Shown here: positions 2,242 to 64,000 of the stretch, one piece after another | Layout of the letters: each line of letters opens with the position of its first letter | Numbering within the stretch: position 1 is the stretch's first letter | From: Acarospora socialis | Taxonomy: Eukaryota > Ascomycota > Lecanoromycetes > Acarosporales > Acarosporaceae | Direction: 5' to 3' | Assembly (NCBI GenBank): GCA_025617375.2 | Contig: JAMYGW020000006.1 | Location: 191,001 to 255,000 of the forward strand | Length of the DNA stretch: 64,000 bases | Translations under genes and position numbers: made by a program | Notes under the pieces: generated by a model | What the model saw: only the letters and a program-made list of their open reading frames with translations | Told to the model about the DNA's origin: nothing | The model's database searches: none

Positions 2242-4065
2242 ATGTCATCAACAATGCCGGGATCCTGGCCGACGCTTCCCGGCTTTCCTGATGGAGTGGG
2301 GTGTGTTGATGCCAGAAGCAGTGCGGCAGACACCCCACCTGGGCTTCATCGCCATAAGATAGGTCTGGGGAGTGTTCGATATGGCGTTTCGTACTCGTTC
2401 AGGAGGGCGGCGTTGACGGAGCTTTTGGAGGGCTTGAAAGCTGGGTGCGCAGAGGTTGAGAGTAGAGGGGCGGGTGTTGAGGGCGATACAGGTGTTGGTG
2501 AGAGGGGTGTTGCGAGACAGCGATCTAATAGTAAGCATCCCATGCATGACAACGAGTAACTTGACTCAACTTCTGAGCTGAGTCCATGCAGGTTCCTTGT
2601 CAGACACGGTCGATGGTACCAGCGACGGCCAAGCAACACCAGACTCGCTAGAAGACGTCGACATGGCACTGCCGCCGTTCCCCAACCTAGTCACCAAAGC
2701 GGGTGAGACAGACTGGGCCAAATACCTGCTCTGGATGGAGGATGACATGTCGTTCGAGGAGCGGACCAACAACAACATGCTTCTGGTAGGAAACTCCATC
2801 CGAGAGGTCTCTTCCGAGGACGTCGTTACGCACCTGAGCCTTGACATCGGGCCCACCGGCAAGCGAAGAATACTGCTGTTCAAGGACCTTCCCGCCATGC
2901 GCCAGGGACAGCATGACGGTCTGGTGATGTATATACTCGGATACGACGCCGCAGAGAGACTGCTCTTCGTTCGGCGGTTTGAGAGACTTTCGTCGAAGAT
3001 AGAGCTACTGCCTCGGTATTGGGATTGTGGTAAGGAAGTAGTGTGGTTGAGTGTCGGACGACTGCTTGAGATGCTTCGGGATGCCGATCTCGACAAAGCG
3101 AGTACCGACTCTGCGACCGTCTTACCAGAATGGGATGAGGAGCTTGGCTTCAAGGTTGTGGTGGTGTCGATGTTGGCTCAGTGGGTCCTTGACTTCAGCG
3201 GTGGGTTGCGAATGATGACGGAGGTGGCGGAGATTGCCCACATGTTGCTTCTGAAATGGAGGGATTCACTGTTGTGGGGTTCTGCAGGGGCGACAGCGTC
3301 TGTGCCCAAGTTCGCTGGGGAGAACGCAGGTCAACAGCTTCATGCAGAAGTCAACGCAACGGAAAGGCAAGCGGTTGTGTCCGTGAGCAATTCGTTGGAG
3401 TTGCCTGTGTGTGGGACACGGCACATTTCAGCCATCTGTCACTACGAGACACCCGCTCACGCATCGCCTTTTATCGACGGCGTTGCCCGTGATAGGAGAG
3501 ACACATACGATAGTGACGAGGAAGAAGAGTGGGCGGCCCGTAACAAGCCAGAAAAAAAAATCGAGAATGACAATACAGAGACGGTATGCGAAGCAGCGAC
3601 GTCGCATGTAGATCTCGGCTCCAACAAAGTCTCAGACTCAAGCAACATGTCTCTCACTCTGGAGGGTGGACAATCGCCACCTGACGCGTCAGATCTAGCA
3701 AGACATGACGATACAAAGCGCTTCAGCGACGCAAGCACACTTTGTGACGGAGGTCAAGAAACCAAAGAGGGGCTGGCATTCACTAATACGTTACGCAATG
3801 CGATGCTGAATGAAGGGTCCAGTGAAGCAATGTTGAGAGTCTACTCGGAGTTTGTTAAAGAGCACCACGAACATGATTCGGAGAAAAAACGCGATCGGCC
3901 CTCTTTGAGTTTCTTGTGACTCAATCCGGGGAGAAAGACGGTGGCTTGTCTCCTATCACCAAAACTTTGCAAGTGCTGAAGAAGATGGGCTCAGCGGAAG
4001 AGAAAGAGGCAGATGCTGCGGAAGCGAAGATCACAAAATTGTTGGAGCGTTCTAACAGCGCGTAA
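2242..4065 (+). CDS. Hypothetical acidic protein with late frameshift
   Basis: Exons 2242..2530 and 2592.. are joined by a 61-nt intron (GTAAGC..GCAG). The frame is open upstream to 2179, but 2242 is the first ATG. The main frame ends with TGA at 3917-3919, giving about 538 residues. I do not recognise a domain. The middle part (about 110-330) is well-ordered sequence with hydrophobic stretches; the C-terminal third is Asp/Glu/Ser/Thr-rich and probably disordered. Just past an A6 run at 3884-3889, the -1 frame stays open to TAA at 4063-4065 and reads as plausible coding sequence (FEFLVTQSGEKDGG..LERSNSA). The simplest reading is one base lost in the A run, a recent mutation or an assembly error; programmed slippage is less likely. 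The 3' end converges on ERB1. Confidence 0.55.
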
Positions 4066-4353
4066 CTGGCCGCGTCAAGGTTGTCTAGCCATCCTAATGA
4101 AGGAATGGAATGGTATTCTGATTTGGTCTTTCTATGGGTAGTGGAGGTCTCTCTCAGTAGCAGGTAGCCCTAGTTGGTCCCGTTATGAAGGGAGCGTGGT
4201 ACCTGAACGGACAATATGTGGCGCATCGGTTTGAAAAACATGTTTCGGATATAGTACTCTCTTTGATATCTCATTCTATCCTGATCGTAAGATAGTTGCC
4301 TGTTGACAGAGATACCTCGTCAATTAATCAGGCATTATTGGCCAACACCCTTC

Positions 4354-6711
4354 TTAAGACCAGAGCCGACAAGTCCCATCTGCTCCAGCACTGACACACC
4401 AAGGCTCACGTGGATGCCAATCTATATCCAACACACCTAACTCTCTTTTCACTTGATGCCCTCTCAGAACCTTGAGCGGTACAATTGTAGCGTTCTCCAT
4501 CAGATCCCCGACGACCTTGCCATGGAAGATCTGCAGGCTGCCATCATCACTCGCGTCAGCAAAAAGAGGAAGGCCGCCTTGATGGAATTTGACTGCTCTG
4601 ATAGCCTTCTTGTGATATCGTAGAGTTTTATAAGGCCGCGTCGAGAGATCGAGATCATGCCAGAGTAGCCTCTTGTCGTACGAGCCGACAATGAGGTTGT
4701 CTCCACCCGGATGAATATCAAAGGACGAGATCCACCGGGCTCCCGGCTGTATCATTTTTAGAAGCTCTTGTTTTGAGAGATCGTAACTTCGAATCATACG
4801 CTGCGTAGCAACGAAGAATATAGGCTTAGATGGATGGAACTGGGCTGATTGTGCCAAACCCTTCAGTCGACGGAACGGTAATTGAGTGAGATGCTTTGAG
4901 AGTGTATGTATCGCGACGGCCCGCGATTGACCTTGGGGAGAGACAGTGGCAAAGTACTCGCCGCGACGGTGCCATGTGATTACTTTCAAACTGCTGCGGA
5001 GGCCAATCTTTACAAGGACCCCGTCATCCTCTAGGCGAGACCCTGGCCGTGTCCACTGCGCAGGCGCATCGGGTTTTGTTGCACCATTGGTAGCGGCCGT
5101 ATTCGTGCCTGCCGCGTAACCCCAACCGACATCCAGTATTTCACGGCTTGAGATCTCAATCTCTGGGTTCGCTTGCGGCGGCACAATCAAGTAGATATTC
5201 TCACCAGCTGCTGCTGATAGTATCATAGCATCTTTTCCGGGCCGCCATCGCACCACGTTTACAGCTTCTTCATCTCCGAGCTTTACTTTCCAGGTTTGCC
5301 TTGCGGTCAACAGTTCCCAGATACGCACCGTCCCATCATCCCCACCACTTGCTAACCACGTTCCTGAAGGATCAATCGCTAAGCTTCGTACGCGACCCTC
5401 ATGACCTCTGAACAGTGCTGCACACGTTGTCGGAAATGGCCTGAGCTCATCGGGGTTTGGGAGCTTCGGTAACAGAGACTCGGGGTCAATGTTGAGTTTG
5501 TTTCGTCGTACTCTCGGTGCAAGGTACAGGTCCAGGCAGCGTTCAAACTTCTCTTTGAGGAACCTATCATAGCCAGGTACCTTTCTTAGAGAGTCATGAT
5601 TTCTCGGTAAATATTCTTTCTCTCGATCTTCTTCATCAGCCTCCTCCCACGCTGCCTCTTCTGCCTTATCAGGTAAGTATTCTGGTGGTGGATGATAGCT
5701 TTCGTCGTAACCAGGCGGAGGCAATTTTGGAGCTGGTATGTTCATAGGATGATCTGGCCTTGATTCCTCGTTCGCCCAGATGTCGTAGCGTTTGATGCCA
5801 GGATCTTCTTCATCTTCTCCCGACGGAGGCTTGTATGGTAGAATCCTACCTTCCCTGATAGCTCGGACTATCTTCATGACCCGCTTAGCCTCATGTTTTG
5901 AGGGTACGAATCGGCGTTTTGGTTCTGGCGCTGCGCTCAAAGGCATTATCTCGAGTTTGTCACTGAAGTATTCAACCATATCAGGGTATGGATCGTATCC
6001 CTCTTCTGGCACTTCATTCATGTGTATTCTTTTAAGGATCTCTAACTCTTCTTTCGTGAGTTCGAGTGGCTTTCCAGTCGACGGATCCGTGAGACCAGTC
6101 CAGCCCTTAGGAACCTCGATGCTGTCTAGCAACGCATCTAACGCCTCGCCCTTCGCAGGCCTTGAGATCTTCTTTCCATTAATGTCATAACCAATGTGTG
6201 GATATGAGTCGTAGAAAGACAGAGGTATGTTGCCAATAGTATTGGTAGTTGCGGGTGCGTCCGAATCGTCCGAATCATAGACGGGATTGATCTCGCCATA
6301 CACGTAGCGAGGATTACCATTGGCGTCTTCCGTAATCACATAGTTGCGCTGATCATTATCTTCGCTGTCATCTCCACCTACTCCAAGGTTATCTTGACTG
6401 ATTGGCCCGCTGCCATTTCCCGGCGACTTTGACCCATTGACTGTTGCCAAGCCCGTGTCGTCATGACCTTCTGAGGGGACTTCATCACTGTCAAGCTCCT
6501 CCTCATCTTCGTCGTCTTCCTCTTCACTCTCCTCATCTTCGTCAGGTTTACTACCGTTGGACCCCTCTTCCCCTTCAATTTCCCCTTCACTGTCGTAAAA
6601 GTTGCCGTTCAATGCCCAGTCGCCAGATTCGCTACCAGAGACCTCATCCTTAGGATCTGGGACATCACGGGTAACTGCTTTCCGCTTCTTGGACTGAACC
6701 ATTGGCGCCAT
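4354..6711 (-). CDS. ERB1: Ribosome biogenesis protein ERB1 (BOP1 homologue)
   Basis: A single uninterrupted exon of 785 residues, close to yeast Erb1 (807). The start was set at 6711: it is the first ATG in the frame, and the frame upstream offers only a TTG. The N-terminal 120 residues are strongly acidic with Glu/Asp runs and Ser. The BOP1 N-terminal domain follows (about 140-400, with [19 protein letters not shown] and the [20 protein letters not shown] block). A C-terminal WD40 propeller starts with [19 protein letters not shown] and ends [22 protein letters not shown]. In the family, Erb1/BOP1 with Nop7/Pes1 and Ytm1/WDR12 forms the PeBoW complex in the nucleolus, needed for 27S pre-rRNA processing and the 60S subunit. 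It is divergent from the Zn2Cys6 gene. Confidence 0.97.
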
Positions 6712-22002: not shown

Positions 22003-24789
22003 ATCTACTCTTTGTCCCTTCAGATATGAGCTCATCTTGCTTCAACTATGTCTCGCAATGATGTCGGGTTTGGACTCCGAGCTGCTTTGGATACGCTTGG
22101 CTTGCTATGATCTGAATTGTGCTTTGACACATAGGGCGCTACCGCAAATAAGTAGGACGCAGAGACGATTGGATCTACGTGGGAGGAAGAAATGAACGTT
22201 ACGTCTTCTACAATTTGACACAAGGCTGTATGCTGCTGATATTAAGAAAGAGTACTGAGACAAAGTCGGTGGCGTGCTCAGCAAAGTACAGATCAGGAAA
22301 AACAACCTTGCGGGATTATCAGCTGGCCGGGGGAAGAAGATGCAGTGGGGATGTTACATTGACGTTATTAGTGGGATGAGGTGAAGAACGAGGCTGGATT
22401 CAAACTGTACATTGGAGGACCGACGGACCTGAATGGTGCGCAACCCTAAGATCCCCAAATGACTGGAATAAGGAACTTCTATCTCGCCAATTGTACCGGG
22501 ATTCTTTTACGATTGCGGAAATATCCTATGGAAAACTATACGAGTAACATGGTACATCCAGCACCATGGCCAGGCGTTATCATGATGGGGGAGCTTGACC
22601 AAGTGGATCGTGAAGGAAGCTTAGGTGTGTCAAAGTAACTGTCAGCAAAGTTGACAACGACTTAACAAGTCTTCCAGGACTGGAAAGAGCCATTTTTTAA
22701 ATTTACGTCAAAACTTATGTTCTATACATCTTCATCGATCGATTTAAGTCATCTTTACTGATTGCAGTGACATTCAGATTTTCTTCTTTGACTGAATAAG
22801 TTACAGCAACAATATCAAACACAAATTCAGAGGTTGTATATCTTGAGCAACAATCTATCAGAAGCAACGTGATTATCTCTGATGTCCATTTCAATTCTTC
22901 TCACATCAATAACACTAACAGTAATAACAATCACAATTCCACTTATCTTCTATATTTGTTGCATAGCAAGAGGCCTGTCTCCAAGAGGTGCCCACCACAA
23001 GCACTTTGTGCGGATCTCACAAGCCAAATCAACCTTAGAGACGCAGCTGTTGGACAACGATGCAGATGTCAAGAGTTTGAGAGACTCACTGCCAATGCTT
23101 CAGTTATAATTATCTTTCATTGAAGACAACCTCTACAATCAGAAACAGAAAAAGTTTGAGAATGTCCGCCAGAGCAAATCACTGAAGAAACTGGTTCATC
23201 TCTCCCGCCAATATCCTGGCTAAACTCGATGTCTTTGTGAGTGATTCATCTTAGGAAGTGGTCGCGATTCTGCGAAATTTGGTTGAACTCAAAGGTATCA
23301 TGTTTATGGCTCAACCAGTACGCCAAACGAATCAGTTTGCCCATCTGAAGATATTCAAGTATATCATGATAGGAGAGTTGGCAGCTCTGAGTAAGCTTTT
23401 GACCAGGTGGTTGACCGCATTCAGAATGTTCTGAGTGGTAAGAGAGCGGTGTTGAGCTAAATGCTGGAGTACAAGACCGGACTGCACAGGAATGTGTCTG
23501 AGTGAAACAGTGGGGTCTCCGTCCCGCCAGCCAGTTCTCCCTTGGAGTCGCACTTACACACCAAAAGCAAATATCCACCAGTACATCCAGTTCTTCTAGC
23601 TCTTCTTCCTAGTTTGGCTTAGTCTTTGCGTCTCTACTGCCGCTGTTACAGCATGCCTTTGGGAGAGCTGCTTGTGTCGCTCAAGTCACTGCATTGCTTT
23701 GCCTTGCAATCGGCAACCGATACTGAACACGAAGACGCCCTTCCCGCATTTCCCGAGAGAAAGAAAGCGAAGATTGACCACGCTCGAGGTTATCTGGACC
23801 CTACGATGAAACACAATTCTGACACCACCCCAAGGCATACGGTATCTGACATGTCCACTTGGTCGGAGTTGGCGGTTGATGATTCAGATCACATGGGCGG
23901 AGCAAGAGCACTCCATGCGTCGCTTACTGCAATGGATCCGACTGTGGCCGTAGGAAGGGTCATTCGAGCCGTTTGGGAATTGGGAGCTGCACGCTTTGTC
24001 AGAAAAACACAAAATTAGTGTGTTTCAAAGAGACCCTCGGTCCCTGCCAGCTCAGTGAAACTGTATCATGTTGTCGATTATCAATATCTTGCCCCGCCGC
24101 GAGGCGTACCACGGGGCAGAGTTGGTAGTTGAGACTTGGCTGTTCTGGACGGTGTCGCGGTACCTCAACTCGCACTCATGCTTTTTGTGATGCTCTTTGC
24201 TTATGAGACAGTTGAGCTGGGTCCTTCGCAGCAGGTATCGATGGCTTGAGACATCCGTCTTTCAACAAGCAATCCCAGGCTGTGTGTTTATAGGCATGAA
24301 TAGTGCATGAAACAACATGAGCCCTTCAAAAGGAAAATTATAACCCATCTGAACATTCTCAATAGATTCTTAGAGTCACCATGCCTTCTGGACTTGGTTC
24401 CAACCGGTTTGTGCCTGTGGCTTTGGCAATGAGAAAGGTGATCTGTCCGCTTTTGTTCACATCTCAAGATTTGAGGATATCTGAGTGCAAAGAGTAAGCA
24501 GTCTGAGATCATACTCGTCTTTCAAGGTCTGTTTTGGTTTATTCCAGCATTCTCTTTGAGTGATACGATAAAATCATATCTGTTGGCGCTTCAAGGCAGC
24601 AAAGGCTGTGCTTTTATGGGACTTGAATTCTGAAGTCTAGTGCCAAGACAGAGAGCAAGGGCGGGAGAGATTGAACTATGAGCTCGAAACAAATGGGTTT
24701 AGTTGCTTCAAAGTCAAGCACAAGTGGTTCACACTGGTCCGCTCCCTGTGCCGCACTTACAGGCAACTAAAATGAACTTAACAACAACC

Positions 24790-27700
24790 AAGAATTAAAT
24801 TAGTGATCATTTCAATATCTAAAAAGACACAGATGATCATTTGAAGCTGAATGAGAGATTAGTGCAATGATGTCTAATCTTATTCTCTTAGTCATTGACA
24901 ATTTTCACATTCAATGCAGCACTGATGAGATAAGTGTCATTAATTCAACTTCTCTTCATGTTGTACAAAATAAATATATTAAAAATTGTAACTTCTTTCT
25001 CATGCAACTTATTCAAATCACTATACTCTAATAAATCAACATTCTGTCATCAATTCTTAACTCTGTGAAAGTTCTACAATAAATACTTCTCTATATGATA
25101 TCTGAATAGTAGAAAGTCTTTTTATTCAGTTAAGATAAGTGAATTATAAAAGTAAATAAAATCAATAAATTAATTAACATCATACAACAGAGACAAATTG
25201 TCAGCAGAAGAATTATGTGATTATTGTGTGAAAAAAACTTGAAAAATATATGTGAAGTGTTGATGATTGAAGAGATAATTTTGAGAAATCTGTGAAAATT
25301 ATAAGAGAAATGATCATAATACTAAATGCATTATACAAAATAAAAATACAGATAATGTATCATCATCAGAAATAGAAAAGATAATAAAAATTATTAAATC
25401 TGATCACAAGATCAAAGCTTCAGCAGTATATAATAAATAAATTATTATTTTTTTTGCATTTTTTAGATCTGAGTGTCTTATACAAATGAAATACTCTATC
25501 ACAAATTCTCAAAGTTCTTGTATACTTTATTGCAAAGCTTCAAGATACTATATATTGAATATTGTATTCTATAAAACTTAGTCAAGAAATATTTTAGTTT
25601 AATGCAGCTGATGATCTTGTATAATATGTAAAAGATGAAAAATCTATTGATGATAAATCTAAATCTGAATCTAGATCTGAATCAGAATTGTGAAATTCTG
25701 TTAATGTGCATGAAAATTGCATGAAATTAGTCAATATATATTAATAAAGTAATATCATACAACTTACAGTAGCTGTCTCTGTCTTAACAGAAGATGAATT
25801 GATATTTAGTTTGATCTTTAGTTTGTTTTCTCTCTTAATCTTCTTAATAAATGATTTGAACAACTTTTTCTTCTTAATAATCTTTTTCTTTATAAACTCA
25901 ATATCATATGACACAGCAGTCTTCTTTTCAACTATCAAAAACATTAAATAGTCACTGAATGTAAACTTAAAGTAAGTCAACAAATTCAAAGTTATTGTGA
26001 CATTCTTCACACTATATTCAAGATAAATTGAATCTTCTTTGCTTTAATCATTTGCAAGTGTGAAAAATATAACATTCTATACAATATGATTTCATCAATA
26101 TATGTCAGATACAAGATCTGTATGAATAAAGATCTTGAGATTGTCAAAAATATAATTATAAAGTTAAATACTGCATCTCTCTAAAAACAAGTACATGTAA
26201 GCTGTTGTATAATCAATGTTGAATGCAAAAAACAATAAATAAAGTATTTTATATCAATAATTTTGTATTCTACATACTTCTTGATCTCATGAAGTTTATT
26301 ATGATCATTTTCATAGATATAAGTCTCTTAACATAGAGTCACTATTATACAATGCACTTTAAACACAGCAATATCAGTAGCAACAGTGCTGCTTGAGTTT
26401 AGAAACTGATGTTTACATGTAAATATGAACAAAAAATATCATAAATTTGTGTATTAACTGCTTGTCATGCAGTTTCTGCTGTAATAGAAATGTGTAATAG
26501 TACTAATGATGCTGTTGTATGATGCAGTGAAGTTAAAATGATATTGAGATCAATGATTACTTATTGACTGAAAGTATTTAAATTTTTAACATTATATTAA
26601 TTATAGTACTGCTTGATTTTTCATTCTGTATGTGATCTATTTGAGTTTTAACATCATTCAGTAAATGTGAATTCAGATATTTTGATGTTATATAATACAT
26701 GTATTTTGAAAGAAAGTTACATAAAAGATATTTCAGTCAGATAAGTTCTTCTCAAAATCTTTTGACTGTATATTAAGATCTGATTCTTCTTTGAGAATGT
26801 TTATTTCATTATTATTTTGTACAATTTCTAAATCTTGTTTTTAATCTATTAACTGAGCACTAAATTTATTTTCTGCAGTCTGTTCAATTTTGATTAAAAA
26901 TATTTTTCTGCATAATTTAATCAATTTGATCAGAATTGATGTTAATTCTGATTGAATATGTTATTGTATGATTGTGCATAACTGAACATAGATCTTACAA
27001 TGAGATCATAATTCATCTGTAAAAACATTCTCTGCACAAATATTTAAAAGTTTTATATTTAAATTCTGCAGCTATTCTGCACATCAATTAAGAATGATAG
27101 ATGAAAGATATTCATCAATATTTATAAATTAGTGTGTTATACAATACTAATGAATTAAGAATACATATTTTAACTTGTATACATTGACAAGTTAAGAGAC
27201 AGCTCAGCTATTTTGACTTAAAAAAGAGTGAAATAGCAGCTCAGAGTCAGCTCAGAACTAGATTTTAGCTGTGTATACTTGCTCTGAGTGCTTTGAGCTG
27301 ACTCTGAGCTGCTTAGTAAGCTTATAAATTATATATTTCATTTATATTGTATTTTACATCATATATTACAAATTACTAAAATTAGAATTAAGCTATACAC
27401 TAAGCTTTAAGCTTAATTGCTTAGTGTAAAAACAACACTAATGCTCTAATTAATGAGTCATCAACACTAGTGCATTTATAATTTTATTTTTGAAAAATTC
27501 AGACAAAATACACTAGTATTTAATATATTATTATTACTAATACTACACACACTTATAGTTATTAAATTTATCTAAAGTCAAGAAAGTTTCTAAATATAGA
27601 CTGATTATTAAGCAATTTTTTATGATTTTATTTATGAATATTATTCACTTTTATACACATTTTAAATATAGCTCAGAGCTAGCTCAGAGCACTTCAGAGC

Positions 27701-29533
27701 TAGTACATGAGCTCAATTAGCTCAGAGCAGTTTTTTGAGTAAAAGTGAGCAAAATCTAGCTCTGAGTCAGCTCTGAGCCATGTCATTATATTGCTGATGT
27801 ATGATGTTTGTAATTGATCAATGAAATTCATATTCACTGATATATCATGATTCTTTGCTGCAACTGTTTCTGAATAATTATATAGCACATGAAGCTGATC
27901 AGTTACAGCATTAAAACAATTGAATTGTCATTGTACAGTATGATTATTTTACAGTTGCACAGATTTATAGATTTCTTGTTGCACAATTGACATATATATA
28001 GTCAGCATGATAATACAATCATCAGAAAATAAATGATCATAAAATCTCTCTTTTGTGAGATGATGAAAGTAATTTTAAATATATTAGCATTGTACAAGCA
28101 ATATTAAATGAGAAAATACTTATATATCAGTAAAAGATCTGACTTTTTGTCAGTTGAGATCATCAAGTCTTAATATGTTGATTTGCAGTACTTGTGTTAT
28201 AGTAGTAACAGTCAATCAAATCAATGTCTAACTGTGTCATATGACACAGTGCTGTGTGCATCTCAGCACACAATGTTGTTTTTTTTTCACAATCAAATTA
28301 TAAGATCTGTGAAAGAAATTCAACTGTTTTGATTGTCTTTAGATACTGACATGCAACACTGATTTTTGTACAATTTGAGATATCAACATAAATTCATGAA
28401 ATATAGCAAGAAAATGCATTTATTTCAGCATAAATCTGAAAATCTCACATGCTCAACTTATTGTGATCATCAATTGATCAGATATAGTTGAGATCTGAAA
28501 TGATGTATTTGTTGCAGTAACATTGCAAATTATTTATATGATATTGATAATTTTCTGAATTGAGCTCTTTAACTATGACAAAGAAATAATTTTTGTTTCT
28601 ATGTTAGTTGCTAGAAACAAATATATATATATTATATAACTTAAATATAATATCTGACAACAAGATGTTCTTTTATACAAAAGTATGTATATAACATGCT
28701 TCTTTCATAATCATCAATAATTTCTGTATTTAATTCTTCAAAAACTATTTTTCTAAAATTTTCATCTGTCTCTATCTGATCAAAAATGAAGACTTTTCAG
28801 ACAAATCTCAGTTTTTTGTGTAATCATATAAGATTTACAGACTTTAAACTATATTCTTTTTGTTTCACAATATGTAGAATAATTTTGTCATTAACACAAG
28901 AGATAAAGAAAAGAGCAGTTACACAAAAATAAGTTGAGAAAAGTTATCTGTCTTAATTCTTTTTGATATTTGTTAGTTTTTGAGATGTCATTGAATTGTA
29001 TAAGCATTACACACAACTTTGTGCTCTTCTTCAAGTAACTGAAATATCTTCTTTGCAGTGTGATTTTTCTGAAAAAACACAATAATTTAATTTTTATGAG
29101 AAGCAAGATCAATAGAACATTTATTGTTTCTCATTTTGCTGTCTTTGTACAACAATGTTTGATTATTGAATATAGTTGATAATATGAATTTGTGTGTGCA
29201 TATATTAGTGCAGTTTCATAAGTGATGATTTCACATAAAATATAAAACTCTTACTACAGACTCAGACTTTTCAAAGTTCTATATTGTACAATATATATTC
29301 ATTATTAATATATGTTCAGCAAAACTCTGTTGTACAATGTCATTCATTTATAGAAACTATATATATTAATATATATCATGCAATTCACATCAACAGATTC
29401 AGTAATGTAAGCAGTAACATATAGATTATGTAATACTACATCTTTTAGAATTTGAGTTCAAATCTCAGCTGAATCATTCAAGAATATTGTGTGCAAGTTC
29501 TACAATAATGTGAAACATGCACATGCTGTTCTT
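24790..29533. repeat. AT-rich tract lacking CpG, CpC and GpG (RIP-like scar)
   Basis: In 4,744 bases I find no CG, no GG and a single CC (27,778-27,779), although G+C is about 25-30% by eye and GC, CA, TG, TC and GA words are common. Chance alone would give some 250 such dinucleotides. Every remaining C (bar one) is followed by A or T and every G is preceded by A or T. This is what complete C-to-T change at C before C or G, on both strands, would leave. The edges are sharp: ordinary sequence with CC and GG resumes within tens of bases on both sides. The open frames inside contain no Gly or Pro codons. The tract is probably decayed repeat; I cannot name the element(s). Confidence 0.85.
27236..27780. 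mobile_element. MITE-like element with long imperfect terminal inverted repeats
   Basis: The left arm 27,236-27,312 and right arm 27,671-27,780 are inverted copies. The outer 30 nt match (GCTCAGAG..CTCAGA.CTAGATTTT on both), and an inner block GCTCTGAGTGCTTTGAGCTG matches the complement GCTCTGAAGTGCTCTGAGCT. The centre holds a further small palindrome (TACACTAAGC..GCTTAGTGTA, about 27,396-27,430). There is no coding capacity. The target duplication is not clear, so the superfamily is open. The lone surviving CC of the tract sits at the tip of the right arm. Confidence 0.55.
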
Positions 29534-30029
29534 GGACTATCATTTTGTTGTATGTTATAAAATTCAGAAAATTTTCTTGGTTGTTGTTAAGTCAGTCTCA
29601 GTTGCCCATAGCACTGTACACTCAGACTGATACACACTTTTCATTCTCTGTTTCAAGGGAATCAGCCTATCATGGGCTAGAGATGAGTCCTCAAAGAAGT
29701 GCCAATTCTGGTACACCACTGACGTACTAGGCAAGCCTGCCGAACTTGATAATCTGTCACCACCTAAACCAATCTTATCAACAACAACTCCAGAATTAGA
29801 ATCAATTGTGTCATCAAAAGACATCTGATTCCCTTCTGACTACAGAAATATTGAATTGTTACATTTTCTGATCATTCAGATGACAGAAGTGCATGCAGTC
29901 TGAAAGAATCAAGCAATGTCTGACTACTGATAGGAGGTGAAGGACTGGGTTAAGAAGCGTAAACTGTGGGAGTGGTATATTATCAAATGAGAATTGAATA
30001 AGGATAGTGATTGCGTGGCCTTTCTACAG
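29534..30029. other. Transition zone after the AT-rich tract
   Basis: CC, GG and a few CG return from 29,534 on. The stretch holds short unassigned open frames and ends in a plausible splice acceptor (TTTCTACAG) in front of the orphan exon. Confidence 0.4.
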
Positions 30030-58502: not shown

Positions 58503-59398
58503 GGTTGCTGTCTTGAGAGTGGGACGGAGTGGCAGAAAGTTGATTCTTTATTTACAACTTGGCCAAGCGGAAGATAGAACGTTGGATATATTTAGGCCCG
58601 TGATTCCGGTCGACCACAGTTCAATATTCATAGACCACTGACTTACTAATCATAGATCACCCCTAATCGGGTAGTGGTTCCAGGCTTTCATGCCTAGATC
58701 CAATGCCTGAGCAGAACTTAGGGGGACGATGATGCGCATTGTCTCTCTCATTCTGGTGGGTGAGGAGCCTCGCTGCCCTGAGCTCACATGAGCTGGGGTG
58801 AGCCTTAGGGTGTGCCCAGGGTGATCCCTCACCTGCATCTCACCTCTGGCACGCCCAGTTAGCATTGCCTCGGTGCTGCTGCCTGACCCTTTTGTAGCGA
58901 GTAGACAGAACGGGCGGAACATTTGCTTTATTGCTGATCAAACAGCACAGGCCAAAGCAGGGTTTATAACCAATAGCATCTGTTGTCGAAGAGAATCTAT
59001 TGCGTACTTTTCTTAGCGCTGTTCAGCCGTTCTATCACCTTACTGTAGTTTTAGTCTCACTAGAATCTGCTTACCATAAACCATTTCATTCAGTGACCTT
59101 TGAGCGCCTTTAATAGGTGGGTGTAAGATCGCTACTGGTGTGTTACCATACATGGCTTAGCGCGCCCACATCAAGCATAGCGCTCCTCTCGAGGCTTCGA
59201 TTGCGCCAAACACGTGACACCAAGCTGAAATCAATGGATTGCAGCCTGGCAGTCGGCGAGGCGTCTGAATAATGGTCTCTCTAACAAGTCTAAGAGCTCC
59301 CAAGTCTCTTACTCTGGCTCGGAGCAGGATCAAGTCCACACGCTGAAGGCCACTGCTCAATTTTATTATCTTACTTCGACTTGAAACTCATTTGCCCA
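58503..59398. other. Intergenic region, possible repeat remnant
   Basis: 896 nt with no gene. The part 58,650-58,980 has an atypical G/C-rich look (repeated CACCT/GGGTGAG words, AGCTCACATGAGCT near-palindrome) and may be a worn repeat; I cannot assign it. Confidence 0.35.
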
Positions 59399-61631
59399 AT
59401 GGATCGTCTTCCACATGACCTTTTGCTCCTCGCAATAGATCGTCAAAATCCTCAAAATCAAGCTTTCGTGGAGGCGTCACAGATACGGTTCATCTATGAA
59501 CCTTTGACTGGGCCAGCAGATATTCGGCTCTTGGTTTTGACCTCAGGCGAACCCAATGACATGATCAAATGTTTCTTGTTGAAGCCTATGAGTCTGGATT
59601 CCCTCGATACCCCGCAGGACTTCGAAGGTTCAAATATTTTGTTGCGAGAATACTTCGCACTGTCTTATGTTTGGGGCGACCCCCATTATGGCCATCTTAT
59701 TTCAGTTAATGGGAACCCATTCTGGGTCACGTCCAACCTACACTCTGCTCTTCAACGCATTCGAGCAATCGGCCACGAATATTTTCTCCTGTGGGTAGAT
59801 GCAATATGTATCGATCGAAACAATCCGTCAGAGCGGAAGGCTCAGGTCCAAATCATGAGCCGCATTTACCGGCAGGCGAAGGCGATGATTGCGGATACCG
59901 GAGAGGAACCCGAGGGTGCAGACTTGCTGGTCCCACTCCTTGAAAAGATCGTGCAAGCGGGAGAGTCGTGCGATGTGGCAGCAAAGTCTCTGGAAATGTC
60001 ACCATCTAATGCACTGGTCGAACAGCAATCACTTGGACAGATTATATCGACAGTCGTCCAGTCAAGCTTGCCGGGGCAATACAGTATCAAAGACGAAGCC
60101 GACGAAGCCATAGGGTCAGCCAAACCCGTTATTCTCAGGCTAGAGCACTATGGCATGCCGCCGAAGACAGATCCTGCTTGGATTTCATTTCGCGGGTTTC
60201 TTGCATCGCCGTATTTCCGTAGGTTATGGATACTTCAGGAATTCGCACTTGCACCACGTATATTAGTTCTGTGGGGCAACAAACAATTATCTGCGAGCAA
60301 GCTGATTGACTCGATCCGATACCTGAATCTCTATGGCACGGGTACACCGGGTTCCTATTTCTCAGTTTTCGGGAGCTACGAGGAGCTCCAGCAGGATATC
60401 CAGCAGTCTAGGACAGAAGGGTACAAAGGATTCATGACATTTATAATTCAAAAGCATGAAGTCCTAGCGAAGCTTCCTGAGGAGGATCACGAAACATTGC
60501 TAATTCACAAAATGAATCTAGCCAAGGTCTTTTTCGCATCAGATGAAAGAGACAAAATCTACGCACTTATGGGTCTCGCATCAGATGCAAAGGTCTACTC
60601 CCCATCCATTGATTACTCGCAGTCGTATGAGGTAGTTTACCGCAGATTCGCCAAGCTCTTCATCGAGAATGGGCATGGCATTGAACTTCTTTACCAAGCT
60701 TGCGCAAGAAATGATCAGACTAGACTTCCAACTTGGGTTCCGGTACGTTTGCCTCGCCCGGATATCTATATCTATTGCCCATAGTGACGTCGCTATTTGT
60801 CGGTTGCGTAAAAAACAGCAATAGGGCTAACCAAAATCGTAGGATTGGCAGAATCCCGACCGAATCCCAAGTCGCCTGGTAGCACCAGGTCCGTCGTCCA
60901 ATTTCGCCGCTTCAAGCTCTCCAGATGCCTTTTTTCAGGTCGATGAGGCAAACGACAGCATTATGGTAGCAGGCGTAATCATCGACACAGTCACCAAATT
61001 GAGCGACACCTTGAAACATGTCGATAGACCTCACGAGCATCAAGACCCAGACCAATTACTAGATGATCACGGACTGCTGATGTTCAACGATATTCTTGGA
61101 TTCTTCATCTCTGGAATGGATTTTGCTGCGGAGATCAGCGAATATCCTACCAATGAGAGTTCTCTTGAAGTTTTGCTGCGGACCTTCATTCGAGGTCCCC
61201 CTTGCCACATCACTCATAACCAGATGCTTTGTCTTCGGAAAGGTGTGAGAGCAATTTTCGATCGAGTAATGCTTGGGGTGTCAATAACGAATGAACCCAC
61301 TAGGCTAGAACGGGAGAAATTGGTGACTGAAGCGCAAAGAACTGAAGATGACATGGCAGAACTTTTCAAAGCTGGTTCGTCGGCATTCAAGCGGTGCTTT
61401 TGCATAACAGCCCGAGGATACTTCGGTCTGGTTCCCGGCAAAGTGCAAATCGGTGACAAGGTGGCAGTCTTCAACGGCGGCCCAGTCCCGTTCATCTTGA
61501 GGGAAGTCGAGCCGCGTCTGGCCGCAGAGCCAGCATTTCAGCTTGTCGGAGACGGATACTTCCACGGGCTGATGCATGGGGAAGCTTCAACTCTCGATCA
61601 TTACAAGGAACAGGGCATTATGCTAGTCTAG
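59399..61631 (+). CDS. Heterokaryon-incompatibility (HET) domain protein
   Basis: Exons 59399..60742 and 60843..61631 (100-nt intron); 710 residues. The first ATG in the frame is 59,399; the frame further upstream offers a TTG only. The HET domain spans about 90-300 with its conserved blocks: YFALSYVWGDP, LLWVDAICIDRNNPSERKAQ, VQIMSRIYRQA and RRLWILQEFALA. After the splice the text reads LPTWVPDWQNP, the usual post-HET motif, and the C-terminal half ends with ARGYFGLVPGKVQIGDKVAVFNGGPVPFILR, a common HET-protein tail. Family members trigger cell death upon fusion of unlike fungal individuals or act in NLR-like defence. It lies 0.5 kb from a heavily mutated repeat tract, a usual setting for variable HET genes. 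Confidence 0.93.
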
Positions 61632-62138
61632 GTATCCTGTTTGGATATCCCATGCAAGGACTTGCAACATCTTAGGTATGCGACCGCCCGCTTGGACGTC
61701 TATGAGACTGTGCTGCCTCAAGTTGGAGGAGGGAAGGAAAGTGATCCACCAGGAAGAGGTATCTACAAAGTAGTTAACAAGAATAATAAACTCCAATCCT
61801 CCAATTTTTATGAACTCTGATACCCCCTTCCACCTATTCACCTTTTAACATCTACCTTTACTGCCATAGATTAGAAAAGAAAGATGGTGCTCACTGTTAT
61901 GGTCGCGTTCACGCAACCTAACATTCACTCATATATTCACTTAGAACCTGACCTCGCGGTCAGGCGGGCCTTTTGCCTTAGTGGTCAAGATCCTTACAAT
62001 CATACAAAGGAGCTCAAATGTCACACTGAAGAGCTTGAATGAATCAATTCTTGTCTTGAATGACACAGCAAAGAACTTGAACACATTGATTTGTTACATC
62101 CTAAACCTGAGATGCCTCAAGTATGCTAGGACTAGAGG
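61632..62138. other. Boundary zone between HET gene and mutated tract
   Basis: 507 nt with no gene. G+C drops step by step. It holds the hairpin at 61,947-61,964. CC and GG persist until 62,138. Confidence 0.45.
61947..61964. repeat. Inverted repeat (7-bp stem)
   Basis: CCTGACC, loop TCGC, GGTCAGG. A perfect short hairpin at the edge of the repeat zone; it may belong to the end of a repeat or act as a terminator-like structure. Role unknown. Confidence 0.4.
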
Positions 62139-64000
62139 TTTGTGCTTGTTGATATAACAATTTGTATGATACAGTTGAATAAATCAGTAGATAGTAACTC
62201 TATTACTAGATGAGAATTTGAACACAATCATTTTCATAAGAAAAACAATTCTACTATATAGAATAAACTCAATTCTCAAAGAATTGACTCAACATTCTCA
62301 GTGTTGCACACAACAGTCTGAATGTTGACTTAATGTCTAACTCATTGTTTGATCTCAGAACTGCACAGTCTGTATACAGTTCTCATATCAACTGCAGTAT
62401 GATCATAATATCATTTTCTTCTTCTAGACACTAGTTCTCTGAGTTTATATAAGTGAGAGTGTAAAGTTGTTTCATCATCAGTCATGTCTCAAAAACTGTT
62501 CATCAGTCATGAGTTTGACAATCATCTTTGAGCTGTCAAAGAGATTCTCTTCTACAGACACTCTCTCACTATTTCTTGCATGCACTGTTACACTCATAGT
62601 CTTTTCTGTATCACAATGAATTCTAATACACACATTAAGTGTGTTGAGTGTACTCATCATGATTGTTTCTGTGTTGATCTGATGTGAAAATCACTGAATT
62701 ATGTTTGTAATCAGCTAAAGTTCAAAATTCTGAAAACAGAAAAAGAGTAAACTTGTCTGTTTGTCAAACTCTTCTGATTATAAAAAACTTTGTGTTAAAC
62801 TTATGACTGTGTAAAATAGAAGATTCTCTGTTTGCTGAAAGAGATAAATGATAATAATAATGATGATGAAAAAAATTCTCAGTCTGAGACTCTTTCTCAA
62901 CTGTTTAATGTAATGCTGATCAACTTCTGACAGTTTAATTCTTTATTTTCTTCTCAAAATGTTGAAGTGTTCTTGTGCAGTTCTTGAGATTTTTCTTGAA
63001 TTTTCATGTATTTTCTGAGATATTGTATTCTTTTCATTTGATGAGATAATAAACTTTCTCTTTAATCATTCTTCTTTTTAGAATGTTCTCAATCTCATAT
63101 TCTTCATTGAATTCAACAGATGTTTCAGTAATCTGAAGTGATATGAACTGATTGCAATGTTGAAGTATGAATGCATGAAATACAGAATGTATTCTCATTT
63201 TCTTGAGTAAGTCAAGTTCATAACTTAGTTTCTTAATATTTTGTTTAATTTTGAATGATTCAATGCTCTTGTTATCTAACTTCTTGCTTTTTTTCTTGAT
63301 GTGTATGTTGTTCATTCTTAAGTATATCTTTTCTCTCTCTTTAAATGATTCTGCTGTTGTTATTCATTCTGTTTGTTGTTTAATCTGTGTTGTTAAGTTT
63401 TGATGCAGTTTCTTTAGTTCATTGATATCTAATATTACTTGTTGACTTTGTGATTCATGTTCTCATGAATCTCATCATATCTTTGAATTGTAATTATAAT
63501 TCACATAGAAAGATATTTTTCTCATGATTTTGTTTCTTATGTTGTTGTACATGAACTGTGTCATAGATAACAGTTGTATTCAGTTGTTCTGATTTTTGTT
63601 GACATAGTGTTTCAAGTATGTTTTCACTGTTTAATTCATTCATTTACTTTGTTTGTTCATCTGTAAGTGATACACTGTCAACATTTTGTGCTTTATTTCA
63701 AGTTCTGCTGTGAGTGTTTCTCAAAACTTATTTATAAACAGTTTGTCTCTGTCAGTGATAAACTCTTTTAATAATTCATGATTACTAAAAAATTCTTGCA
63801 GTATGATGTAAATTAATACTGATGTCATTGCAGTCTTTTTAAATGAAATGAACATGATGTACTTAGTTAATCTATTCACTATGATTAATATGCTGTCAAA
63901 TCTCACTTTTCATGTTGAGTTCTTTAATGATGATAGCTTTATAATGAAGTTCATAGTAACTGATTTTCATGATGCATCTGATGCATTTAGTTGTGTTATT
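62139..64000. repeat. Second tract with no CpG, CpC or GpG
   Basis: In 1,862 bases up to the window end there is not one CG, CC or GG dinucleotide, against roughly 100 expected from composition. GC, CA and TG remain common. The signature equals that of 24,790-29,533, yet the sequence is a different element (a Ty3/gypsy fossil, below). Confidence 0.85.
63034..64000 (-). mobile_element. Decayed Ty3/gypsy (chromovirus-type) LTR retrotransposon fossil
   Basis: On the minus strand, in pol order: part of the integrase core (63,906-63,721, DSILIIVNRLTKYIMFISF and DRDKLF), then a C-terminal region (63,315-63,034) with a YELDLLKKMRIHSVFHAF run and an EYEIENIL stretch as found before and in the chromodomain of chromoviruses. 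The reverse transcriptase side lies beyond the window. LTRs are not identified. The copy is broken with many breaks and old, or was rapidly mutated: all C before C or G is gone. Family assignment is from motif resemblance only. Confidence 0.75.

Follow-up and report, generated by a model that had tools for sequence, protein, structure and literature searches.

What removes almost every cytosine followed by C or G from a stretch of fungal DNA, and leaves other cytosine contexts plentiful? The question is raised by positions 24790-29533 of the window (the whole 64-kb stretch of the Acarospora socialis genome analysed here). This tract (4744 bases, 25.7% GC) contains a single CC, no CG and no GG (odds ratios 0.01, 0 and 0), against about 77, 78 and 79 expected from base frequencies, or about 234 in total. 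In the same tract GC (113 occurrences, odds 1.45), CA (338, 1.52), TG (352, 1.53) and CT (266, 1.17) are abundant. The recount confirms the composition given in the first-pass annotation (one CC, no CG or GG, plentiful GC, CA and TG), and its argument that low G+C is no explanation is upheld, GC remaining common. The only surviving CC lies at 27778-27779 (forward strand), within an insertion described below and some 20 bases from its right edge. The longest runs free of CC, CG and GG are 24789-27778 and 27779-29534; elsewhere in the window, excluding two AT-rich blocks, such runs reach at most 100 bases. The limits 24790 and 29533 were set by the flanking CC and GG, and the real unit is a larger transposon copy (24760-29608).

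The tract is a transposon copy

Positions 24760-29608 hold a hypermutated copy of a DNA transposon with terminal inverted repeats, of about 4.2 kb plus a nested insertion of 618 bp, recognised by inverted termini and TA flanks in this and other copies. The left terminal repeat (24760-24794, forward strand) was traced visually as far as the TA flank by comparing copies, and the right one lies at 29574-29608 (reverse strand). Both partly retain CC/GG, on the right at 29579, 29605 and 29606, and they share a perfect inverted match of 19 bp (24776-24794 versus 29574-29592). The TA target-site duplications occupy 24758-24759 (all nine left ends compared have TA before the inverted repeat) and 29609-29610, as placed by copy comparison. 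TA flanks and inverted ends suggest a Tc1/mariner-like transposon, but the length is unusual for that group.

The nested insertion (27182-27799) represents a repeat family of its own, equally stripped of CG, GG and CC, whose matches elsewhere are 85-95% identical. These matches are restricted to about positions 2389-3013 of the tract as query, and several copies of the parent element continue without the insertion (for example L006 with L028, and L011 with L012). Genome-wide, the transposon has 54 matches, fragments counted, on 12 contigs. Long matches to the parent part are 85-90% identical, with the exception of L033 (76%), which was excluded from the copy alignment and from the CG/CC-column and edge analyses; copy loci were extracted for 30 of the 54 matches. 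A single transposon copy, and not a regional block, makes up the tract. Two of the 65-73% matches (L035 and L036) were examined as potential intact relatives and both are stripped, L036 retaining three GG. Translated in six frames, with stops as X, the tract yielded no usable Pfam match (one hit, at E 0.18).

Differences between copies

Copies of the parent element align at about 88% identity, and transitions make up 95.9% and 94.0% of the pairwise differences in two parts of the element. Among copies of the nested element they account for just 64%. At 132 columns derived from CG (where copies read CA or TG instead), the 1208 cells comprise 520 CA, 482 TG, 205 TA and one CG; C-to-T and G-to-A changes are both seen, so that both strands are affected. 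The 28 sites where CC survives in some copy (220 cells) contain 113 TC, 38 CC, 31 CT, 28 TT and 10 others. The share of T is about 19% of cells at CA sites and about 28% at CT sites. For a directional count, the first 235 bp of the lightly mutated copy L008 served as reference. Relative to it, the other copies carry T in 66 of 80 cases at CC, 16 of 32 per strand at CG, 84 of 320 at CA and 52 of 248 at CT, and the two CG sites of this reference are both lost in all eight other copies. The earlier statement that C before G or C is wiped out therefore stands, and that on the survival of CA/TG holds in part only, since CA and CT are also mutated at a lower rate. Processive action on one strand was not seen at the CG-derived columns (neighbours hit on the same strand: 306 of 558 versus 295 expected, and 198 of 420 versus 209 in the other part); each site seems to have been hit on either strand independently of the others.

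Decay of methyl-CpG classically leaves fewer CG and more CA/TG, and it has been proposed to explain CpG depletion in the rust Austropuccinia psidii (PMC12774611). That ordinary deamination slowly eroded methylated cytosines in heterochromatin, without any dedicated mutator, nevertheless appears very improbable here. CC is lost too, losses end within 100-200 bp of repeat ends, and copies diverge by about 11% transitions against about 0.5% transversions per pair. To lose CG to this extent takes about 7 hits per site, while transversions number about 0.0025 per site and lineage. The resulting ratio of roughly 2900 assumes independence among copies, which is incomplete: several share their first resolved sites.

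The 16 dinucleotide ratios of the tract were also compared with simulations. A rule mutating C before S (C or G) comes nearest (rmsd 0.13; four other rules, 0.41-0.89), although it leaves GC too low (1.02 versus 1.45 in the real tract) and TC/GA too high.

Limits at repeat ends

Across 18 element ends (one further right end, that of L033, being excluded), CC+GG falls from 92 per kb in the 100 bp just outside the element to 32, 3.3 and 1.7 per kb in successive bins of 100 bp within it. In the same bins CG falls from 41 outside to 8.3 and then 0 inside, and it is slightly reduced over about 300 bp outside the ends. Mutation is confined to repeated DNA and spares single-copy neighbours.

The steeper drop of CG is one of the observations favoring two overlaid processes, in which CG would be lost by CG methylation of the DNMT5 or DIM-2 type followed by deamination of 5-methylcytosine, and CC/GG would be removed by a CpC-preferring form of repeat-induced point mutation (RIP). 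However, CG and CC/GG disappear at the same repeat edges, and a single rule with a higher rate at CG also accounts for the order. Moreover, the survival of one CG in 1208 cells at so few transversions per pair seems to demand a much faster process than slow deamination. We regard this combination as rather unlikely, and return to it below.

A young LINE family

A younger LINE family is not saturated. On each of 13 contigs its listed copies lie together in a single cluster, and 14 of at least 40 copies were aligned. C/T polymorphism affects 54 of 68 CC sites (79%), 21 of 250 CA sites (8%) and 17 of 207 CT sites. These figures leave out 25 sites with a variable next base or mixed states: four with C before A or G (4 polymorphic), 16 with C before C or T (9 polymorphic) and five others (1 polymorphic). 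Among the 150 reverse-transcriptase matches listed, stops comprise 418 TGA, 60 TAA and 21 TAG, an excess of TGA that is predicted by GG-to-GA and CG-to-TG changes.

In the LINE copies CG is nearly gone (odds 0.00-0.06) yet much CC and GG is kept (odds 0.48-1.08). This contrast could mean separate processes for CG and CC, as the two-process explanation has it.

Other repeats and AT-rich windows

A second hypermutated block belongs to a different repeat family with at least 86 matches in the genome. It starts near 62138, contains no CC, CG or GG from there to the window end (64000) and runs past it; its continuation (L037) has one CC in the next 5 kb. The dinucleotide check proposed in the first-pass annotation was run on 524 windows drawn from the 64-kb stretch and other loci, which overlap and were in some cases chosen as repeats, and are therefore not independent samples. 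Most AT-rich windows show the same signature. The 211 windows below 30% GC contain 48 CC/GG/CG where 5546 are expected, and 180 have none, with CA+TG above expectation. The opposite pattern, named beforehand as evidence against the idea (low GC with CA/TG depleted), occurs in none of the surveyed windows below 36% GC. In six windows below 33% GC, CC/GG/CG exceeds 0.3 of expectation. In an evenly chosen sample, 4 of 20 stretches are AT-rich: one (L043) is nearly stripped, with a single CC, and three are only partly so (CC, GG and CG counts of 32, 30 and 0 in L048; 9, 13 and 1 in L049; 7, 9 and 3 in L057). Not every AT-rich stretch of the genome is saturated. A search with 5.8S rDNA for a mutated/unmutated pair found two loci of normal composition and, more weakly, two others (E 0.106 and 9.34), and no directional pair. 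The ITS resembles that of Eurotiomycetes, perhaps of Phaeomoniellales.

AT-rich blocks in fungi are made by RIP, and the classical CpA-type process is an obvious candidate. However, the tract has a product index of 0.78, a substrate index of 1.60 and a composite index of -0.82. None of 227 AT-rich windows, which again include overlapping and repeat-selected loci, satisfies all three thresholds (product >1.1, substrate <0.75, composite >0.01), and one has a composite above 0; the thresholds of The RIPper are 1.1, 0.75 and a composite above 0 (PMC6714961). CA+TG exceeds expectation in every low-GC class of the surveyed windows and GC is common, against both classical RIP and plain low G+C, and rules led by CpA fail to reproduce the ratios when simulated. 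Independent copies that differ from each other contradict an assembly or masking artefact. The chance that any of these three accounts for the tract is negligible.

Methyltransferase and deaminase genes

As the first-pass annotation had suggested, the genome was searched for cytosine methyltransferases, and it is predicted to encode RID-like, DIM-2-like and DNMT5-like enzymes. The RID-like gene L002 (contig C2) matches PF00145 at E 1.7e-27 and carries SPPCQ as motif IV. PF00145 is the only domain found in the 665 aa scanned, and the open frame extends beyond the start of the extracted locus; apart from a candidate intron, the extracted part has no stop. Its target-recognition region, between motifs VIII and IX, counts about 80 residues by eye in a two-exon reading, as short as is typical of the RID/Masc1 class (about 80 aa). 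Motif VI reads ENT, aligned with ENV of bacterial enzymes: T is as in RID and N is retained. Described RIDs have EQT or EET, and all other eukaryotic enzymes ENV (PMC6709928). The RID/Masc1 class is distinguished from DIM-2/DNMT1 by the absence of BAH and RFD domains. Some RID/Masc1 members reportedly show a faint resemblance to BAH (PMC2432034).

The DIM-2-like L001 has a clear PF00145 match and a BAH match of 29.9 bits, below the cut-off of 30.8. It matches PDB 9bap at E 1.3e-191, an entry named DNA (cytosine-5-)-methyltransferase that we take to be DIM-2. The DNMT5-like gene (L003/L042) shows PF00145 and SNF2 in open frames that follow one another along a single contig, with RING matches below Pfam's cut-off. 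The presence of these two genes would suit the two-process explanation, and their enzymes might also contribute under a single process.

C-to-T changes on either strand that depend on a neighboring base are also the mode of action of cytidine deaminases, whether APOBEC-like or acting on exposed strands, and the genome has seven matches to PF00383. We consider it quite improbable that such an enzyme, in place of a RID-type methyltransferase, produced the pattern. The matches are few and a RID-like gene is present. Furthermore, AID/APOBEC context rules lie mainly 5' of the C, unlike the rule here, which lies in the 3' base.

Proposed mechanism

It is likely that this transposon copy was inactivated by a RIP-type process that hypermutates repeats from C to T and prefers C before S. 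The first-pass annotation had proposed a saturating, RIP-like process that acts on both strands and converts C to T when C or G comes next; copy comparison, the young LINE family, the sharp repeat ends and the 524 windows all support it. On either strand, cytosines with C or G as the next base would be the targets, and in the tract their mutation has run to completion; C before A or T would be mutated about a tenth to a seventh as often, as judged from the young LINE family. CG may be mutated before CC. A first hit on CG would give TG or CA by chance of strand, and the product would then sit in a low-rate context, because of which CA and TG would accumulate instead of vanishing. Part of the CA/TG excess is produced in this way.

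Such RIP would probably be driven by RID, given the presence of the gene and the known role of RID. The enzyme would be the methyltransferase encoded by L002, acting perhaps in the sexual cycle, where RIP takes place before meiosis, and its unusual motif VI or its target-recognition region may set the preference. More tentatively, a RID-class enzyme with an ENT motif VI may have moved RIP from C before A/T to C before C/G, and the LINE family may have persisted under this pressure by shedding nearly all CpG and much silent CpC with its open frames kept. If true, the genome would harbor both a mutator whose code is inverted and a transposon adapted to it.

Comparison with known systems

The usual sign of RIP, and the one that software scores, is the loss of CpA (PMC6714961). 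Mutated repeats such as those described here score as free of RIP (0 of 227 AT-rich windows), and surveys reporting no RIP may therefore be wrong in other fungi. A natural enzyme with a nearly opposite preference, if real, would show what decides which cytosines RIP chooses. In addition, CG-derived sites record the strand that was hit, making old repeats a log of mutator action. In the literature covered, no fungus was found with CpC as a leading RIP target; an earlier mention elsewhere is possible.

In Neurospora crassa the order is CpA>CpT>CpG>CpC, and in Trichoderma reesei CpA and CpG are mutated alike and CpC last (PMC5496416); in Paecilomyces variotii (Eurotiales) mainly CpA is mutated (PMC6300479). 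The A. socialis pattern shares with N. crassa RIP the C-to-T change on both strands in repeats only, the AT-rich result and a RID-like gene, but here CpG and CpC lead and CpA and CpT trail. It shares repeat-linked C-to-T change with T. reesei and P. variotii, where the process was shown in crosses. Strong CpG loss from transposons is common to the CpG-biased RIP-like mutation of Aspergillus nidulans MATE elements, Microbotryum and Tuber. Leading CpC loss is not reported for these in the relevant parts of the sources; mutation in Microbotryum prefers TCG and no RID-class gene was found there, and MATE and Tuber also show CpA (PMC2621366, PMC4352252).

L002 itself departs from the RID/Masc1 class, with ENT and not EQT or EET as motif VI. 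CpG depletion by deamination of methylcytosine similarly loses CG and gains CA/TG, whereas here CC/GG is lost too, the repeat edges are sharp and the transition/transversion ratio is very high. In MIP repeats are methylated and not mutated; here they are mutated. Both the CpA preference and the positive standard indices of classically defined RIP are absent from the stripped repeats analysed.

A transposon copy stripped of CC, CG and GG

The first-pass annotation described a 4.7-kb tract (24790-29533) with one CC and neither CG nor GG. A recount gives exactly these numbers; base frequencies would predict about 234 occurrences of the three together. GC is in excess (113 occurrences, odds 1.45) though made of the same two bases, as are CA (1.52) and TG (1.53). 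With the two stripped blocks of the window excluded, the longest run free of CC, CG and GG is 100 bases. The second block starts at about 62138 and continues beyond the window end; positions 62138-64000 and their continuation (L037) belong to a different repeat family with at least 86 genome matches. A HET domain gene (PF06985) lies at 59381-60784 on the + strand, as expected of a filamentous ascomycete.

The assembly searched comprises 31.1 Mb in 38 contigs (the window is C6:191001-255000). Matches to the tract lie on 12 contigs and number at least 54, since 40 of 53 candidates were scored. Dispersed copies share two of its parts, query 1-2392 and 3011-4744, and long matches to these are 85-90% identical, with the exception of L033 (76%). 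Query 2393-3010 is found elsewhere as a separate repeat (85-95% identity). Copy ends that were compared show inverted terminal repeats with TA flanking each side. On the basis of these copy matches and ends, the element extends from 24760 to 29608 and includes a nested 618-bp insertion at 27182-27799, which has its own repeat family elsewhere in the genome. The only CC left in the tract (27778) is near the edge of this insertion. The nested element contains many AGCTC/GAGCT words.

Direction and context of the mutations

Transitions represent 95.9% of pairwise differences in the left part of the transposon (12 sequences, the tract among them) and 94.0% in the right part (12 sequences). The nested element is unlike its parent: among 6 sequences, transitions account for 64% of differences and transversions for 36%.

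The first 235 bp of one copy, L008, are barely mutated and were used as the reference for reading changes in the others; L008 and L009 are somewhat divergent from the remaining copies, so that a small number of the changes may predate the others. T replaces C in 66 of 80 cells at CC, 84 of 320 at CA and 52 of 248 at CT. The two CG sites are each lost in all 8 other copies, with T in 16 of 32 per-strand cells. An original CG is expected to yield CA in some copies and TG in others, and the 132 column pairs of this type hold 520 CA, 482 TG, 205 TA and a single CG. The choice of strand is even, with no clustering along the copies. Column pairs retaining CC in at least one copy (n = 28) hold 113 TC, 38 CC, 31 CT, 28 TT and 10 others. 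T occupies 19.4% of cells at CA sites (609 sites) and 27.5% at CT sites (538 sites). These figures cover sites whose following base is constant and where some copy still has C; sites lost in every copy are omitted. From these copy-to-copy counts, the rule proposed initially, C to T before C or G, is retained as the strong component. However, CA and CT are not fully spared, since a weak conversion is present there.

The tract and five other copies (L006, L010, L018, L027 and L034) have most of the first resolved CG sites in common. This implies either some mutation before these copies separated or later exchange between them.

Mutation rules were also applied by simulation to ordinary window DNA, GC content fixing the single free parameter. 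Measured on the tract's 16 dinucleotide ratios, the C-before-C/G rule gives an rmsd of 0.13, against 0.46 for a uniform rule, 0.89 for a CpA-led rule, 0.81 for a Neurospora-like rule and 0.41 for a CpG-only rule. The C-before-C/G simulation does not reproduce the GC excess of the tract. The standard RIP (repeat-induced point mutation) indices of the tract are 0.78, 1.60 and -0.82. None of 227 AT-rich windows passes all three cut-offs, which were compared with those in PMC6714961, and the composite index exceeds 0 in one of the 227. RIP-index software would miss these mutated repeats.

Limits and genome-wide extent

The edge profile covers 18 element ends, 9 left and 9 right (the right end of L033 left out). 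Just outside the ends (100 bp), CC+GG stands at about 92 per kb; successive 100-bp bins inside have 32, 3.3 and 1.7. CG falls from 41 to 8.3 and then 0. One of the 18 flanks, to the right of L017, is itself AT-rich. CG is 38-41 per kb in the 300 bp outside the ends versus about 52 farther out, a slight dip that may correspond to spill-over.

Windows of 500 bp (524 in all, some of them overlapping and most selected because they are repeats) were taken from the window and from loci cut from the genome. Those below 30% GC (n = 211) contain 48 CC, GG or CG for 5546 expected, and 180 contain none at all. CA+TG exceeds expectation in every GC class; the CA/TG depletion in AT-rich DNA named beforehand as contrary evidence is absent, no window below 36% GC having CA+TG under 0.9 of expected. 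In six windows below 33% GC, CC/GG/CG still exceed 0.3 of the number expected. Of 20 evenly placed samples, four have AT-rich sequence. L043 retains a single CC and is almost fully stripped; CC and GG persist in L048, L049 and L057 with CG at 0, 1 and 3, which suggests that CG is lost before CC and GG. The rDNA loci L038 (C18) and L039 (C28) have normal composition and contain N in part; their ITS appears similar to that of Eurotiomycetes.

Stops among the 150 reverse-transcriptase matches listed, LINE included, are TGA (418), TAA (60) and TAG (21); 23 of these matches are stop-free. The C-before-C/G rule produces TGA from both TGG and CGA. CpA-type RIP is expected to give mainly TAA and TAG.

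A young LINE family

L048, one of the evenly placed 1.5-kb samples, is a member of a LINE family whose copies, 96-98% identical, number at least 40 (of 60 candidates, 40 were scored). Another member, L079, carries endonuclease, reverse transcriptase and RNase H within a single open frame. In 14 aligned copies, after exclusion of 25 sites at which the next base varies or is mixed, C/T polymorphism affects 54 of 68 CC, 21 of 250 CA and 17 of 207 CT sites (T frequencies 0.218, 0.030 and 0.029). This unsaturated family follows the same rule as the transposon copies. Its odds are 0.00-0.06 for CG and 0.48-1.08 for CC and GG.

Within the open frames (L078-L082), the lowest CC values occur at codon boundaries, a place at which C to T is silent (0.27-0.32 of expected, versus 0.81-0.88 at positions 1-2). 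In two host frames used as control the boundary values are 0.76 and 0.75, and those for positions 1-2 are 1.57 and 0.94. In the LINE, GG at positions 2-3 reaches 1.41-1.63 of expected, an excess not predicted from the rule alone; in L079, 30 of 35 such GG are TGG tryptophan codons, where mutation creates a stop. Its 45 arginine codons include 39 AGA and 2 AGG. This pattern is what the same mutation pressure combined with selection on the protein would leave, as if the LINE had been under this pressure while its protein was kept.

Each of 13 contigs (C1-C12 and C14) holds a single cluster of the listed copies (for example L063-L076 and L078-L082), such as C1:2655540-2798749 and C14:10007-86841. 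The layout is centromere-like. Several frames of the family are open, and CpG is nearly absent from it.

Candidate enzymes

RID-like and DIM-2-like methyltransferases, of the types whose search had been advised, are both present. PF00145 gives four matches in three places. L001 is DIM-2-like by sequence: it has a methyltransferase domain, a BAH domain scoring just below the curated cut-off, and 9bap as best solved-structure match (E 1.3e-191). L003 and L042, a methyltransferase part followed by an SNF2 part, appear DNMT5-like. In RID-like L002, methyltransferase is the sole domain found in the fetched part (the N-terminus lies beyond it). Its PCQ motif, the short stretch of approximately 80 residues separating motif VIII from motif IX, and the C-terminal catalytic domain agree with RID/Masc1 proteins as described in PMC6709928 and PMC2432034. 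However, its motif VI, aligned with ENV of bacterial enzymes, reads ENT rather than the EQT or EET of the RIDs described there (PMC6709928). Any control of the target preference by this change is conjectural. The genome also has seven PF00383 deaminase matches.

Proposed mechanism and comparison with known RIP

Recognition of repeats would proceed as in RIP. Conversion of the cytosines in them would take C before G first, then C before C, and the remaining contexts slowly. Mutation of CG on one strand would leave the partner C in a low-rate context, so that the site comes to rest as TG or CA; 205 of 1208 CG-derived cells were carried on to TA. The even, unclustered strand choice agrees with numerous light rounds or with hits independent of one another, not with one single-strand sweep. 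By analogy with RIP elsewhere, the process would act in the sexual cycle and involve RID.

The target order is reported as CpA>CpT>CpG>CpC in N. crassa, and in T. reesei CpA equals CpG with CpC last (PMC5496416). RIP demonstrated in a cross of Paecilomyces variotii (Eurotiales) is CpA-led (PMC6300479), and a ten-genome comparison mentions CpA, CpT and CpG signatures only (PMC4352252). CpG-led loss occurs in Microbotryum and also, alongside CpA loss, in the MATE element of A. nidulans (PMC2621366). In the literature covered by the search, which excludes the main survey (Clutterbuck 2011), CpC was nowhere found described as a leading target. Uncinocarpus reesii, for which a rise in CA and TG is mentioned (PMC7862722), may be a related case. 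The CpA preference of classical RIP is not observed here, and repeat mutation in Acarospora socialis behaves like RIP, probably in a new form with a C-before-C/G target.
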